Origin: Pedobacter sp. BAL39
GTDB lineage: Bacteria; Bacteroidota; Bacteroidia; Sphingobacteriales; Sphingobacteriaceae
Direction of reading: 5' to 3'
NCBI RefSeq assembly: GCF_000170795.1
Contig: NZ_ABCM01000009.1
Location: 1-64,000, forward strand
Length of the DNA stretch: 64,000 nt
Position numbers and translations under genes: made by a program. Below, piece after piece: positions 4,568 through 63,226 of the stretch; position 1 is the first letter of the stretch, and the number at the start of each line of letters is the position of its first letter. The notes under the pieces were generated by a model. It saw only the letters and a list, made by a program, of their open reading frames with translations. It had not been told where the DNA came from and did not search any database.

Positions 4568-5905
4568 TTAATATTGATAGCTGGCATTGGCGCGTTCCAG
4601 CTCTGTCTGCCGGGTTTGCACATTGAGGTAAGCGATGCTTTGCTTCTGCTGATCGTTGATGAGCCTGGTCTGCGCGTCGAGCAGCTCCAGGTAAAGTGCC
4701 TGTCCTTCCTTATAGAGGCGCTGCTGGTCTTTGAAATATTGTTCAGACAGAGACACCTGACTTTGTGCAGCAGAAAAGGCCTGATTAGCAGCCTCCAGCC
4801 TGTTTTTCGCTGTCAGCACTTCCATCTGCAGCTGTTGTTCTACCTGCTCCAGTTGTGTATGTGCAGACCTGAGCTCCAGCTGTGCCTGCTGAATTTTATT
4901 GTTGTTGCGGTTTCCGGAAAAGATGTTCCAGGACAGGGTGACTCCAAAAAGATAATAGGGTGTTTCTCCATTCACTTTTATAAAATCCCCCTGCGAGCCA
5001 AGATCCAGGAAAGTGGAAAGTTTCGGCAGCATATTGGATTTGGTCATACGCAGGGAAAGCTCATTGAGCTGAGTGGCAGAGGCCATGGCAGCAAGCTCTT
5101 CACGTTGTCCTCCCGCAGTCGTGTCTTTCACAAGCGGTTGCTGAAAATCTGCTTCAATGGCTGCGTCCAATGGCCTGTTTAGCAGGAAATTGAAGTAGGC
5201 CGCAGCGTTGAGCGAAGTTGCCTTCGCATCGCCAAGCTGCGCCTGTAGACCTGCAACTTCGTTTTCTGCGCGACTGACGACGGTCCTGATGGCTTTGCCA
5301 TTTTTTACCATGGATTGGTTGATGCGCAGGTTTTCATTCGCGAGCAACAGTCCGTTTTCCAGGATCTTCAATGACTGTAAAGATTGCTGATAGCCGTAAT
5401 AGCCCAGTTTCACCTGCTTGACCAACTCTCTTTTATACACGCTGAGCTGTGCCTGCTGATAACTGATCTGCTCCTTTTTAATCCGGCTGTTGTAAATCAC
5501 CTCTGCATTGTAAAGCGGCATGGTGGTGTGCAGCTTGGCATCGTAATAATTGGTAGGGTTAAAAGCCTGACTGACATTCTTTACCTGTGGAAAGCGGGAG
5601 GAATTGGTGAGGTTGTTCAGGGTGCTGTACACCGGGTTCAGCAAATCGCCGATAGGGATTTCTATTTTACGACCTCCGCCGGAAGTAACATAAGAGGTAT
5701 TGAACTCCACCTCAGGCAGGAAAAGGCCTTTAGCTTCTTTCAGCGCATAGAGGCTTTTCTGCAGCGCGAAGTCCTGCTGCTTCAGGCCAAGATTGTTGCT
5801 GATGGCTTCCGCGATATATTTGTCGAGCGGCTCTTGTGCCTTCAGGTCTCCTGGTAGCCATAAAGCCAGAAGAAGACAGCAAAAGATGGTTAAGTTTGTT
5901 TTCAT
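4568..5905 (-). CDS. TolC family outer membrane efflux protein
   Basis: This 445-residue protein starts with a cleavable signal peptide ending near AQ at residue 24. The body consists of long Ala/Gln/Leu-rich helical segments repeated in two halves (about 130-240 and 320-440). This is the TolC fold that forms a trimeric outer-membrane and periplasmic tunnel. It is the first gene of the efflux operon. Its 183-base upstream region holds two copies of a 14-bp motif also present in front of the TetR gene, which suggests repression by that regulator. Confidence 0.9.
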   Translation of the reverse strand: MKTNLTIFCCLLLALWLPGDLKAQEPLDKYIAEAISNNLGLKQQDFALQKSLYALKEAKGLFLPEVEFNTSYVTSGGGRKIEIPIGDLLNPVYSTLNNLTNSSRFPQVKNVSQAFNPTNYYDAKLHTTMPLYNAEVIYNSRIKKEQISYQQAQLSVYKRELVKQVKLGYYGYQQSLQSLKILENGLLLANENLRINQSMVKNGKAIRTVVSRAENEVAGLQAQLGDAKATSLNAAAYFNFLLNRPLDAAIEADFQQPLVKDTTAGGQREELAAMASATQLNELSLRMTKSNMLPKLSTFLDLGSQGDFIKVNGETPYYLFGVTLSWNIFSGNRNNNKIQQAQLELRSAHTQLEQVEQQLQMEVLTAKNRLEAANQAFSAAQSQVSLSEQYFKDQQRLYKEGQALYLELLDAQTRLINDQQKQSIAYLNVQTRQTELERANASYQY

Positions 5906-58384: not shown

Positions 58385-59152
58385 TCAGCCCCTGATCTTT
58401 TCTACGAAACGGTGGACACTTCCTTTTAGGTCTTGTGGATCCAGACTTTTCACAAAAGCGCTACCGATGATACCACCGTTAGCAAACTTACAGGCTTTAT
58501 CGAATGTTTCCCCGCTGCTGATGCCAAAGCCGATCATCGTTGGATGGTCAAGCTTCATTGCAGCGATTCTGGAAAAGTACGCCTCCGTCTGGTCAGACAC
58601 CTGCAGGTTCTGCCCCGTCGTAGCCGATGAGGACAACAGGTAGATGAAGCCGGTAGTCAGTCCGTCAATTTTGCGGATGCGTTCATCAGAAGTCTGTGGC
58701 GTCACCAGAAAGATATTAGTCAACCCATGTTTTTTAAAAACGTCCATATAAAGCTCCTCATACTCTACCATTGGCAGGTCTGGAACAATGCAGCCATCCA
58801 CGCCGACCTCAGCGCAGGATTTACAGAAATTGTCGACCCCATACTGCAGCATTGGGTTCACATACCCCATCAGCAATACCGGAATGTTAACTGTCTTACG
58901 CAGTTCCTTTAACTGACCAAAAAGCAGCTGAAGAGTCATCCCTGCATCAAGGGCCTCCTTACTGCTTGCCTGGATCACCGGTCCGTCCGCAACAGGGTCA
59001 GAATATGGGAAACCTATTTCCAGCAAGTCTGCACCGGCAAGCTCCAGTTCTTCTGCAATCTTCAGCGTATCGTTAAGACCGGGATAACCGGCAGTATAAT
59101 AAATGGATAATATGTTCTTTTTTTCCTGGAATAACTTATTTATTCTGTTCAT
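58385..59152 (-). CDS. trpA: Tryptophan synthase alpha subunit
   Basis: This 255-residue subunit splits indole-3-glycerol phosphate into indole and glyceraldehyde 3-phosphate, passing indole to TrpB. The catalytic Glu lies in ADLLEIGFPYSDPVADGP (about residues 35-52) and Asp in DGCIVPDLPMVE near 125. It is the last gene of the operon trpD-trpF-trpB-trpA, 8 bases after trpB. Confidence 0.95.
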   Translation of the reverse strand: MNRINKLFQEKKNILSIYYTAGYPGLNDTLKIAEELELAGADLLEIGFPYSDPVADGPVIQASSKEALDAGMTLQLLFGQLKELRKTVNIPVLLMGYVNPMLQYGVDNFCKSCAEVGVDGCIVPDLPMVEYEELYMDVFKKHGLTNIFLVTPQTSDERIRKIDGLTTGFIYLLSSSATTGQNLQVSDQTEAYFSRIAAMKLDHPTMIGFGISSGETFDKACKFANGGIIGSAFVKSLDPQDLKGSVHRFVEKIRG

Positions 59153-59160
59153 TGTAGCTG

Positions 59161-60345
59161 TTATAAATCAAAATATTTCATGTAGGTATCCATGTCTTTA
59201 TCACCCCTTCCGGAAAGACATACCACTACATTTTCATGGCTTGTAAATTTCATTTTCTCCAAATAGGCAAGTGCATGGGCGCTTTCAATTGCCGGAATGA
59301 TGCCTTCAAGCTGCGTAAGCAGTAGCCCTGCCTGCAGCGATTCATCATCAGTTACGGAGACATACTCGCCACGTCCACTTTTAAAAAGGTGAGCATGCTG
59401 GGGTCCGATACCCGGGTAGTCCAGTCCGGCGGAAACAGAGTAAGGCTCTACCACCTGTCCATCCGGGGTCTGCATCAGGATACTTCTGCTACCATGCAAC
59501 ACACCCTCTTTACCAAGCGCTGTTGTCGCCGCAGAATGACCACTATCCACCCCTTTTCCAGCAGCTTCCACCGCTACTAGCTTCACTTTTTCATCGGCCA
59601 GAAAATGATAAAACATCCCCATGGCATTACTTCCACCACCTACGCAGGCCAGTACATAGTCCGGTTGATCACTTCCCGTCTGTTCCAGCAATTGTTTTTT
59701 CGTTTCTTCAGAAATGATGGACTGGAAGATGGCCACCATGTCAGGGTACGGGTGTGGTCCTACCACTGAACCAATGATGTAGTGTGTATCCACGGGGTTA
59801 TTAATCCAGTCGCGCATGGCTTCATTCGTCGCATCTTTCAGCGTTTTACTACCTGAAGTGGCTGGGACCACCTTAGCACCGAGCATCTTCATTCTCGCTA
59901 CGTTTGGTGCCTGTCTTTTGATGTCGATCTCCCCCATATATACTACACATTCCAAACCGCGCAAGGCACATACCGTGGCTGTAGCTACACCATGCTGGCC
60001 GGCACCGGTTTCGGCAATGATCCGCTTTTTGCCCAGTCGCTCTGCAAGCAGAATCTGACCGATGGTATTGTTGATCTTATGCGCACCGGTATGGTTCAGG
60101 TCTTCTCTTTTCAGAAAGATATTTGCATTGTATTTCTGGGACAATCTTTTCGCAAGATACAATGGCGAAGGCCTGCCTACATAGTCTTTGAGCAGCTCAT
60201 GAAATTCCTTTTGAAAATTCTCATCGGCGATAATTTTCAGGTAGCTGTTCCTTAGTTCTTCCACATTTGGATAAAGCATTTCGGGGATATATGCCCCTCC
60301 GAAATCACCATAATATCCTTTTTCATTCACAAAATAACTCATCAT
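59161..60345 (-). CDS. trpB: Tryptophan synthase beta subunit
   Basis: This 394-residue PLP enzyme joins indole and serine to tryptophan. The PLP Lys lies in [10 protein letters not shown] near residue 85, and [10 protein letters not shown] and [15 protein letters not shown] follow. Two ATG codons (60345 and 60342) are possible starts. It follows trpF after 27 bases and precedes trpA by 8 bases. Confidence 0.96.
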
Positions 60346-60372: not shown

Positions 60373-61092
<720 letters not shown>

Positions 61093-61138: not shown

Positions 61139-62128
61139 TTAGACTGTCAGCAGTTTTTTGAAGCTATTCAATGCCCTTTTATTTATCAGTGATTCTTCAG
61201 CCTCATAAAAACAATCGGCGAAGGATTTTGAGGCATCAATGGTTTGAATGGCCAGTGCAGCATTACAAAGCACCACATTTACCTGTGCTTCTTCCCCTTC
61301 TCCATTTAGCACATTCATGAAAATTTTTGCAGAAGACTCTACCGTATCTCCACCCTTGATCAGTTGCTCATCAATCTCCTCAAATCCAAGATCTATAATT
61401 TTCGTCAGCGCTTCACCATTTTTGCTGAAAGTCTTGAAATCACAGGTCATCGATACTTCGTCAAAGCCATCCACAGCATGCAGGATCGTATAGTTTTTAT
61501 CTGTTTCCTGATATAGGTAAGCATAAAGTCGCGCGAGTTCCAGGCTAAAAACACCAACGATCTGATTTTTCGGCTGTGCAGGGTTCACCATTGGACCAAG
61601 CATATTAAAAAACGTCTTCACCCCCAGCTCTTTACGTATTGGAGCAACCGTTTTCATTGCCGGGTTGAACAAAGGGGCATGGAGAAAGCAGATCCCCGCA
61701 TGATCCAGACTGCGTTTCAGCAAGTCCTGATCATTGGTAAAGCTATACCCGAGGTATTCCATGACATTCGACGATCCGCAACCGGATGAAACACCGTAAT
61801 TACCATGTTTGGCCACCTTATGTCCGGCACCGGCCACGACAAAAGAAGCCAGCGTAGAAATGTTGAACGTATCCTTACCATCTCCACCTGTCCCGCATAG
61901 ATCTACAAGCTCATAGCTGGATAAATCTACCTTTATGCAGAGGTCGAGCATAGCATCCCTGAAGCCCTGCAATTCAGCTACAGTGATATTGCGCATACCA
62001 TAGGCCGTGATAAATGCGGCAATCTGCGAGGTATTGAATTCACCCAACGCAATTGAAGTGAGTATTTTCTGAGCTTCAGCCCTGCTGAAGCTTTTGTTTT
62101 CGAATAGGTGGTTAAGTATTTTCTTCAT
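61139..62128 (-). CDS. trpD: Anthranilate phosphoribosyltransferase
   Basis: This 329-residue enzyme transfers phosphoribose from PRPP to anthranilate. LCGTGGDGKDTFNIST (about residues 78-93) binds PRPP, and KHGNYGVSSGCGSSNVMEYLG near 108-128 is the anthranilate-binding region. It is the first gene of the trpD-trpF-trpB-trpA operon. A leader with an attenuator lies directly in front (62140-62263). Confidence 0.96.
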   Translation of the reverse strand: MKKILNHLFENKSFSRAEAQKILTSIALGEFNTSQIAAFITAYGMRNITVAELQGFRDAMLDLCIKVDLSSYELVDLCGTGGDGKDTFNISTLASFVVAGAGHKVAKHGNYGVSSGCGSSNVMEYLGYSFTNDQDLLKRSLDHAGICFLHAPLFNPAMKTVAPIRKELGVKTFFNMLGPMVNPAQPKNQIVGVFSLELARLYAYLYQETDKNYTILHAVDGFDEVSMTCDFKTFSKNGEALTKIIDLGFEEIDEQLIKGGDTVESSAKIFMNVLNGEGEEAQVNVVLCNAALAIQTIDASKSFADCFYEAEESLINKRALNSFKKLLTV

Positions 62129-62139
62129 GGGTATAAAAC

Positions 62140-62162
62140 AAAAAAGGTTGCCCTAAGCAACC
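62140..62162 (-). terminator. trp attenuator: transcription terminator
   Basis: On the minus strand GGTTGC (62162-62157) pairs with GCAACC (62151-62146) around TTAGG, followed by TTTTTT. It lies only 12 bases before the trpD ATG. Its 5' arm is also needed by the antiterminator, so the two structures exclude each other. Confidence 0.8.
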
Positions 62163-62208
62163 CTCAAAATATTTTTATGTAAGATAAAACGTTCAAACAG
62201 GGGGTTAC
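62157..62208 (-). promoter_or_regulatory. trp attenuator: antiterminator pairing
   Basis: GTAACCC (62208-62202), just after the leader stop codon, pairs with GGGTTGC (62163-62157) with one G-U wobble. This hides the 5' arm of the terminator. A ribosome stalled at the three Trp codons leaves GTAACCC free; one that reaches the stop codon would cover it. Confidence 0.65.
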
Positions 62209-62209
62209 A

Positions 62210-62263
62210 CTACGCTATTGCGTTGTGCCACCACCAAAGATTAAGTCCGTTTTGTTGTATCAT
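62210..62263 (-). CDS. trp operon leader peptide, WWW
   Basis: An 18-codon minus-strand reading frame encodes MIQQNGLNLWWWHNAIA and stops at TAG. Residues 10-12 are consecutive Trp codons. The frame lies between a promoter-like element and the attenuator structures, and is directly upstream of trpD. This is the arrangement of a classical trp leader. It is too short to be found by ordinary gene calling. The sequence is not homologous in detail to E. coli TrpL. Confidence 0.8.
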   Translation of the reverse strand: MIQQNGLNLWWWHNAIA

Positions 62264-62270
62264 TCTAAAG

Positions 62271-62302
62271 CAAATATGGAATTGTTTTCGCAAAGCAGCA
62301 AA
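62271..62302 (-). promoter_or_regulatory. Probable promoter of the trp leader
   Basis: On the minus strand TTTG (62302-62299) lies 20 bases from CATATTTG (62278-62271), one base off the -7 consensus. The leader ATG follows 7 bases later. Confidence 0.5.
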
Positions 62303-62321: not shown

Positions 62322-63182
62322 CTATCCATTGTTTTTAAGGAAATCAATGATCTCTCCATAAAGCTGATTTCTGCTGAAAACCATCTGACTGATCATACCT
62401 ACATGTTTTTTCCTTTTGATCTCGCGCAGGGTTACAGGAACATCATTAGTTTTCAATAGATTGGCCATCCTCTTCGACTGGATCTGTATCGCCGGATAAG
62501 TCCGATCTCCATAAAAAATGAGGTGAGGATTCTTCACATTTTCGATATAGTGTAATGGAGAGCCCAATATCCAGGTTGCAGGGTCATTGCTGAATGTACG
62601 CAAGAAGTTGTAGTAATTATCATCCTGTTCCGCATGACTCATGTACTCCCCCATATCCAGGCCAAAGGCATCATTGAGCACTACCCCCTTAATGTCGCCA
62701 TGAAAACCTACCGCTTTTAAATATTGCGGATCAGCATTGATCAGCTCAGCGAGATGTGCTCCTGCAGAATGCCCCATTAAAAAAATACGATCTGGATTTC
62801 CTCCATACTTCGCGATGTTTGCAGATACCCATTTTACCGCTGCTGCGCAGTCAGCGGCCATCTGTTTATATTGTTGCTCCGGGGCGAGGCCGTAGTTGAT
62901 GATGACCGTTACCACACCTTTCTTTGCCAGGTTCCTGCCAAGCCACCAATAAGTTTCCTTTTTACCGCTGCTCCAGGATCCGCCGTGAATAAAGATGAGT
63001 ACATCTGCCTGATCTCTCCCGTCAATGGACGTTACCGACTTTGATAAATCCTGATGATAAATATTGAGCTGCCGGCGCGAATCATTCATCGCATCTGTAT
63101 AGGCAATATTCTTAGACACCCGTACCTGTGCAGATACAGACAGTACAGAAATGGAAAACAACAGCATCATCAATATCTTCAT
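62322..63182 (-). CDS. Alpha/beta hydrolase (carboxylesterase-like)
   Basis: This 286-residue exported esterase has a signal peptide (1-19, ending near SVSAQ). HGGSW near residue 73 is the oxyanion-hole motif and GHSAGAHLAE (about 145-154) holds the nucleophilic Ser. The His is likely that in KKHVGM near the C-terminus. The fold resembles bacterial BD-FAE/feruloyl- or acetyl-esterases. The start is ATG 63182; an upstream in-frame extension of 30 residues lies in a degenerate 18-bp repeat and was not used. Confidence 0.82.
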   Translation of the reverse strand: MKILMMLLFSISVLSVSAQVRVSKNIAYTDAMNDSRRQLNIYHQDLSKSVTSIDGRDQADVLIFIHGGSWSSGKKETYWWLGRNLAKKGVVTVIINYGLAPEQQYKQMAADCAAAVKWVSANIAKYGGNPDRIFLMGHSAGAHLAELINADPQYLKAVGFHGDIKGVVLNDAFGLDMGEYMSHAEQDDNYYNFLRTFSNDPATWILGSPLHYIENVKNPHLIFYGDRTYPAIQIQSKRMANLLKTNDVPVTLREIKRKKHVGMISQMVFSRNQLYGEIIDFLKNNG

Positions 63183-63226
63183 TGAACAACAACATTTACC
63201 TTTCAACGCAATTATACATATTAACG

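Follow-up and report, generated by a model that had tools for sequence, protein, structure and literature searches.

The trpL leader of E. coli has a Shine-Dalgarno sequence and a 5′ UTR longer than the 3 nt predicted for the leader described here. In Pseudomonas putida, more than one unit of a split trp pathway is reportedly attenuated, the title of the 2001 work of Olekhnovich and Gussin naming attenuators of trpE and trpGDC. Compared by that title, our locus resembles P. putida in having a split trp pathway, probably with more than one attenuated unit, and differs in its EGC/DFBA split, its phylum and its sequences. In the accessible parts of the respective papers, Bacteroid-trp appears among the cis-regulatory RNAs of Bacteroidetes (Weinberg et al., 2010, PMC2864571; Rfam RF01692) and is noted upstream of trp in F. 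psychrophilum (PMC6414381), for which 'strong clues' that amino acid operons are attenuated through leader peptides are also mentioned (PMC9723704). Among the literature matches listed, subscription papers aside, no title was recognised as describing such a trp attenuator for Pedobacter or Bacteroidota, or the split pathway.

The window, i.e. the whole 64,000-nt stretch of Pedobacter sp. BAL39 DNA analysed (contig NZ_ABCM01000009.1), carries a leader and hairpin region at 62263–62140 on the minus strand, immediately upstream of trpD in a trpD-F-B-A operon. We consider it highly probable that trpD-F-B-A is controlled through this region by ribosome-mediated transcription attenuation, with charged tRNA-Trp as the signal. 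Like Bacteroid-trp, the region belongs to Bacteroidota and consists of a leader ORF with consecutive Trp codons (WW or WWW), followed by a terminator, before trp genes; unlike Bacteroid-trp, it precedes trpD of a split pathway and has other helix sequences. The sequence-only reading had left membership in Bacteroid-trp to a covariance search, a caution that proved justified, as RF01692 gave the window 21.6 bits (E = 7.1) against a gathering threshold of 49 bits and accepted one of the 20 relatives tested (49.4 bits). Among 198 genomes of the class, eight had an RF01692 match above the cut-off and ten one at E ≤ 0.001 (stricter filters), all ten places being upstream of trpE or trpB, and none of the six family genomes in this sample had one. 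With the enterobacterial trp attenuator model (RF00513, Trp_leader), the window shares Trp codons, hairpins and U tract and aligns to the entire model, at 26.6 bits (E = 0.0028) against a gathering threshold of 41 bits. The window attenuator very probably acts in the same way as the E. coli and Bacteroid-trp ones and lies outside both Rfam families by their cut-offs; it would be a divergent new representative of an already known type of switch. The comparisons below support translation-coupled trp attenuation in a Bacteroidota family mostly missed by the Rfam models.

Layout of the leader upstream of trpD

Bacteroidota promoters have a −33 element, a candidate for which is the outermost of the features recognised here.

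62299–62302, minus strand: candidate −33 element TTTG, 20 nt upstream of the −7 box (sequence)
62271–62278, minus strand: sigma-A type −7 box CATATTTG, one mismatch to the consensus TAnnTTTG (box conserved in relatives)
62264–62266, minus strand: predicted 3-nt 5′ UTR with the transcription start at A62266 (from box position)
62210–62263, minus strand: leader peptide ORF MIQQNGLNLWWWHNAIA plus TAG (sequence; conserved frame; synonymous excess)
62228–62236, minus strand: three Trp codons TGGTGGTGG, putative sensor (sequence)
62220–62228, minus strand: segment 1, 5′ arm of the 1:2 hairpin, GCACAACGC (folding; covariation)
62207–62215, minus strand: 3′ arm of the 1:2 hairpin, GCGTAGTGT (folding; covariation)
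62202–62208, minus strand: segment 2, GTAACCC, 5′ strand of the putative antiterminator (sequence; 2:3 tests)
62157–62163, minus strand: segment 3, GGGTTGC, partner of 2 or 4 (sequence; pairing tests)
62146–62151, minus strand: segment 4, GCAACC, 3′ arm of the terminator (sequence; terminator scan; covariation)
62140–62145, minus strand: terminator U tract, six T in DNA (sequence; terminator scan)
61139–62128, minus strand: trpD, first structural gene, ATG at 62128 (Pfam PF00591 and PF02885)
60373–61092, minus strand: trpF (ORF and domain search)
59161–60345, minus strand: trpB (PALP domain; name from position and length)
58385–59152, minus strand: trpA (ORF and domain search)

The leader ORF has 17 codons, from the ATG at 62263–62261 to the TAG at 62212–62210. 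The sequence-only reading had described three tandem Trp codons in it, which are found at 62236–62228 and are conserved in relatives. It had also placed GTAACCC directly after the stop: the adjacent segment is there, with one base (T62209) intervening. Its pairing of GTAACCC with GGGTTGC is present and retains complementarity in relatives, with no excess covariation, and its terminator of GGTTGC, GCAACC and six U is likewise present, with a 3:4 helix that covaries. The position it gave, just before trpD, was confirmed by the two Pfam domains, trpF, trpB and trpA following. The 1:2 hairpin, which overlaps the third Trp codon by that codon's final base, had been absent from that reading; pairings 1:2, 2:3 and 3:4 together make the classical set of alternatives. 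Within trpF, the hexamer TGCTCC occurs in 7.2 perfect copies (60733–60775) and yields an in-frame (GA)n in the protein, where length polymorphism is possible.

We propose the following scenario. When Trp-tRNA is plentiful, the ribosome would get to the stop at 62212–62210 and cover segment 2 (62208–62202), segment 3 would then pair with segment 4, and RNA polymerase would halt at the U tract. When Trp-tRNA is scarce, the ribosome would stall at the Trp codons and mask segment 1, allowing 2:3 to form instead of the terminator, and trpDFBA would be transcribed. When the leader is not translated, the 1:2 hairpin would sequester segment 2 and the terminator would form. In the BAL39 genome, no match to TrpR was found.

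The fold of 62140–62263 has −33.2 kcal/mol (z = −2.88), only one of 200 shuffles being equally stable by minimum free energy, and this fold includes the terminator and the 1:2 hairpin. A terminator scan of 8.1 kb gave no excess, finding 6 sites where shuffles led one to expect 6.5, and the terminator by itself would therefore not mark the site. The leader with its hairpins exceeds chance expectation in fold stability, in conservation and in the covariation of 1:2 and 3:4.

Conservation and pairing in relatives

For comparison, the best 80 trpD loci from a search of the genome collection contigs were used, comprising Pedobacter, Mucilaginibacter, Sphingobacterium, other Sphingobacteriaceae and some unclassified relatives. 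The closest TrpD among the matches listed was that of Pedobacter caeni (90% identical), and the window genome is Pedobacter-type. Thirty relatives, the window not among them, served to train a covariance model (R1) with helices 1:2 and 3:4. R1 scored the window at 61.6 bits, the runner-up place in the same genome having 31.8 bits, and gave each of the 80 best trpD loci at least 41.4 bits; 50 of the 80 were outside training, some of them close kin of training rows. The Trp codons, the pairings and the site before trpD are kept across these 80 loci, which bears out the comparison with relatives that the sequence-only reading had called for. Two loci have two adjacent Trp codons rather than three (L053, CWW; L071, WWC). 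One locus is cut by a contig end (L025), and another, left out of the scripted extraction because the pattern missed it (L048), carries WWW and reaches 67.9 bits. The leaders of L021 and L022 lie beyond the 400 nt scanned upstream and were seen in the extraction.

At larger scale, R1 matched at E ≤ 1e-4 in 91 of 121 family genomes (counted by E-value, at least one false match, in G271, included) and at E ≤ 0.01 in 73 of 198 class genomes. Matches below about 49 bits were not taken as attenuators by score alone. A second match in G228 (48.3 bits) and the match in G271 (41.1 bits) were rejected as attenuators, each being a plain terminator beside an unrelated gene; a weak match in G203 (45.3 bits) is upstream of trpD. 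Because the weak matches inspected include plain terminators, the 73 class matches are mostly no evidence of an attenuator. As plain terminators score 41–48 bits, the lowest trpD loci (L071, 41.4 bits; L072, 46.0 bits) rest also on position and leader, and the 43.5–47.6 bits that R1 gave to five of the ten RF01692 places fall in the range of those terminators (G271, G228).

The trpD leader is coding-like by its sequence signature. An in-frame ATG within 45 nt with no stop was found in 78 of 80 extracted loci, the window included, compared with 0 and 4 in the other frames. Among close pairs, which are not independent of each other, 77 of 210 single-difference codons were synonymous against 17% expected.

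Pairings were examined in an Infernal alignment of 81 rows (78 distinct) fitted to the 1:2 and 3:4 structure, termed A4. RNAalifold on a first MAFFT alignment (A1) had given only four pairs because segment 3 was one column out of register between the Pedobacter and Mucilaginibacter rows; A1 was replaced by A2, with a hand-written structure, and then by A4. In A4, 93.7% of the cells of 1:2 and 3:4 are paired and both helices covary, with changes on both sides in 14 of 17 pairs and none of 500 shuffles doing as well on any of the five measures. For the terminator helix 3:4, both-side changes occurred among relatives in nine of nine pairs. The 2:3 pairing, which is not part of R1, is paired in 87.3% of cells, compared with 24.5–53.8% when slid, and lies above all 500 shuffles, but narrowly (shuffle mean, 86.1%). 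Its duplex energy against shuffled segment 2 had a mean z of −3.44, with z below −1 in 81 of 81 rows. No excess of 2:3 covariation was found in A4: two of eight pairs changed on both sides, which 391 of 500 shuffles reach as well, and the covariation score was reached by all 500. Support for 2:3 is thus conserved complementarity and not compensatory change.

The elements by which the attenuator class is recognised are therefore present as follows: a short leader with Trp codons, by sequence and coding signature, its translation being predicted; an intrinsic 3:4 terminator upstream of the operon's first structural gene, by covariation, its termination being predicted; and a mutually exclusive 2:3 pairing, by conserved complementarity without excess covariation. 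We observe the leader ORF, its Trp codons and three pairings that the RNA could form, all of them conserved in relatives, and from these we infer stalling, termination and the response to tryptophan. The comparative tests support the interpretation of the sequence-only reading as a trp attenuator, under which stalling and a tryptophan response would be expected.

The leader might control translation of trpD, the hairpin hiding the trpD start, rather than transcription, and in the window the U tract does end 11 nt upstream of the trpD ATG. Among the extracted loci, however, this gap ranges from 10 to 397 nt, which fits termination better, and the U tract right after the stem is conserved in relatives; we regard control of trpD translation as very improbable. 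In one Pedobacter clade (L021–L032), the terminator is separated from trpD by 24–397 nt of partly repeat-like sequence.

The hairpin might also be the ordinary terminator of the esterase gene at 62322–63194, which lies upstream on the same strand and whose stop is 157 nt before the start of the hairpin, the Trp ORF being incidental; terminator-like sites are common in the region. This explanation seems to us highly improbable, given that 76 of 78 relatives have a sigma-A-like box just upstream of the leader ATG, that the leader with its helices occurs in all 80 best trpD loci, and that an esterase homologue occurs upstream (up to 3 kb) in just 15 of these 80, at varying distance. The product of the gene at 62322–63194 is an alpha/beta hydrolase (BD-FAE/Abhydrolase_3). 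That the hairpins sense an RNA-binding protein or a metabolite, WWW merely reflecting needs of the RNA sequence, is scarcely credible. Some UGG conservation may indeed be structural, the last G of the Trp codons belonging to helix 1:2, but relatives keep the start codon, the reading frame and a bias toward synonymous change, and Trp codons recur in the trpE leader of these genomes, whose helix sequences are different.

The trpE-G-C half of the pathway

The attenuator proposed here heads only part of the pathway, and trpE has a separate leader, neither of which was in the sequence-only reading. trpF comes next after trpD in all 80 best trpD loci, and trpE, trpG and trpC were not found within up to 3 kb on either side of them. 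In the BAL39 genome, trpE-G-C is on a different contig from trpD, preceded by the following feature.

L083 (G000:C40), about 2552–2821: additional Trp-codon leader (WQW) upstream of trpE-G-C, with a terminator of its own

The leader ORF is MINNIHTWQWRSNSEKSSVVVLCTL and the terminator AAGCCCGGCG...CGCCGGGCTTTTT. In this assembly, trpC (4808–5529 of the same locus) is split over two frames, by a draft error or as a broken gene, and forms a single open frame in six relatives.

Within the family, trpE was found in 117 of 121 genomes, paralogues being among these matches. Seventy upstream regions of trpE, the 30 best and 40 picked for spread, were examined, and 66 of them have a short ORF with WW or W.W (filter WW, W.W or W..W); among the remaining four, Trp codons can be made out by eye in L142, which has a GTG start, and in L156. 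In the 30 longer trpE loci, trpG and then trpC follow in 29 and trpG alone in one. The trpE terminator (CCCG.CG/CG.CGGG) differs from that of trpD. A complementary segment 2 is found in many genera, with 51 of 69 measured trpE leaders below z −1; the 70th row, in which no Trp codons were placed, was outside this measurement, and the trpE leader of BAL39 itself has a weak 2:3 pairing (z −0.36). R1 matched the trpE leaders weakly, at best with 37 bits, and we do not claim that the trpD and trpE attenuators are copies of each other. Both halves of the split pathway carry a Trp-codon leader, the second of which appears to guard trpE-G-C.

Promoter boxes and distribution in Bacteroidia

The sigma-A consensus TAnnTTTG, with the box at −12 to −5, is given in the accessible part of a study of F. 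psychrophilum (PMC9723704). A box NA..TTTG within 40 nt upstream of the ATG was present in 76 of 78 trpD leaders (shuffles, 6%) and in 57 of 65 trpE leaders (shuffles, 12%). From its position, the 5′ UTR is predicted to be 4 nt or less in 30 of 76 trpD and 45 of 57 trpE leaders, and under 10 nt in 63 of 76 and 51 of 57, respectively, the choice of the most upstream ATG biasing these values toward short ones. Under the same rule, UTRs of 4 nt or less were obtained for 3 of 41 long ORFs in the window, 21 of 461 at the trpD loci and 0 of 56 at the trpE loci, a rough control in which many genes sit within operons. As far as the accessible parts of the sources go, about 3.7% of the 5′ UTRs of B. 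thetaiotaomicron are under 10 nt (PMC7366714), and the leaderless share in F. psychrophilum is 5.5% (PMC9723704). Since the box usually lies a few nucleotides upstream of the leader, the trpD and trpE leader mRNAs look nearly leaderless, and motif position predicts a transcription start 3 nt before the AUG of the trpD leader.

A wider scenario, which we put forward tentatively and do not rate as probable, is that the Sphingobacteriaceae divide the pathway into trpEGC and trpDFBA, each with its own separately diverged attenuator, and that both leader peptides are made from near-leaderless transcripts, the ribosome loading on the 5′-terminal AUG as it leaves RNA polymerase. If so, a phylum with few Shine-Dalgarno sequences would obtain the ribosome–polymerase timing that E. 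coli obtains through the Shine-Dalgarno-led trpL. Because the switch needs a ribosome close behind RNA polymerase, these apparently leaderless leaders may offer a direct test of transcription–translation coupling, of interest in such a phylum.

The class survey used only strong trpE and trpD places, i.e. better-scoring loci and not an even sample, and for the recount of leaders gene starts were placed by tblastn. In 61 class genomes both genes were placed, and their starts lie within 6 kb in 51; the other ten are the six family genomes and four with trpE and trpD on different contigs, where fragmentation is indistinguishable from a split. A Trp leader upstream of trpD was found in all six family genomes of this sample, where trpD and trpE are separated; none of the 24 trpD loci of other Bacteroidia has one. 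Of these 24, 23 lack any leader, two of them with just 206 and 362 nt of upstream sequence, and the remaining one has an ORF that shows no likeness. Upstream of trpE, WW or W.W leaders occur in 17 of 24 loci outside the family, two of the seven without one having just 45 and 142 nt of upstream sequence. A Trp leader before the first trp gene thus looks common where Bacteroidia have a trp operon, and in Sphingobacteriaceae, where the operon is cut, each half looks to have one. Three trpE loci outside the family (L254, L256 and L257) have WRW leaders, with Trp codons one Arg codon apart, a spacing like that of WQW, WLW and WHW in Pedobacter-type genomes.
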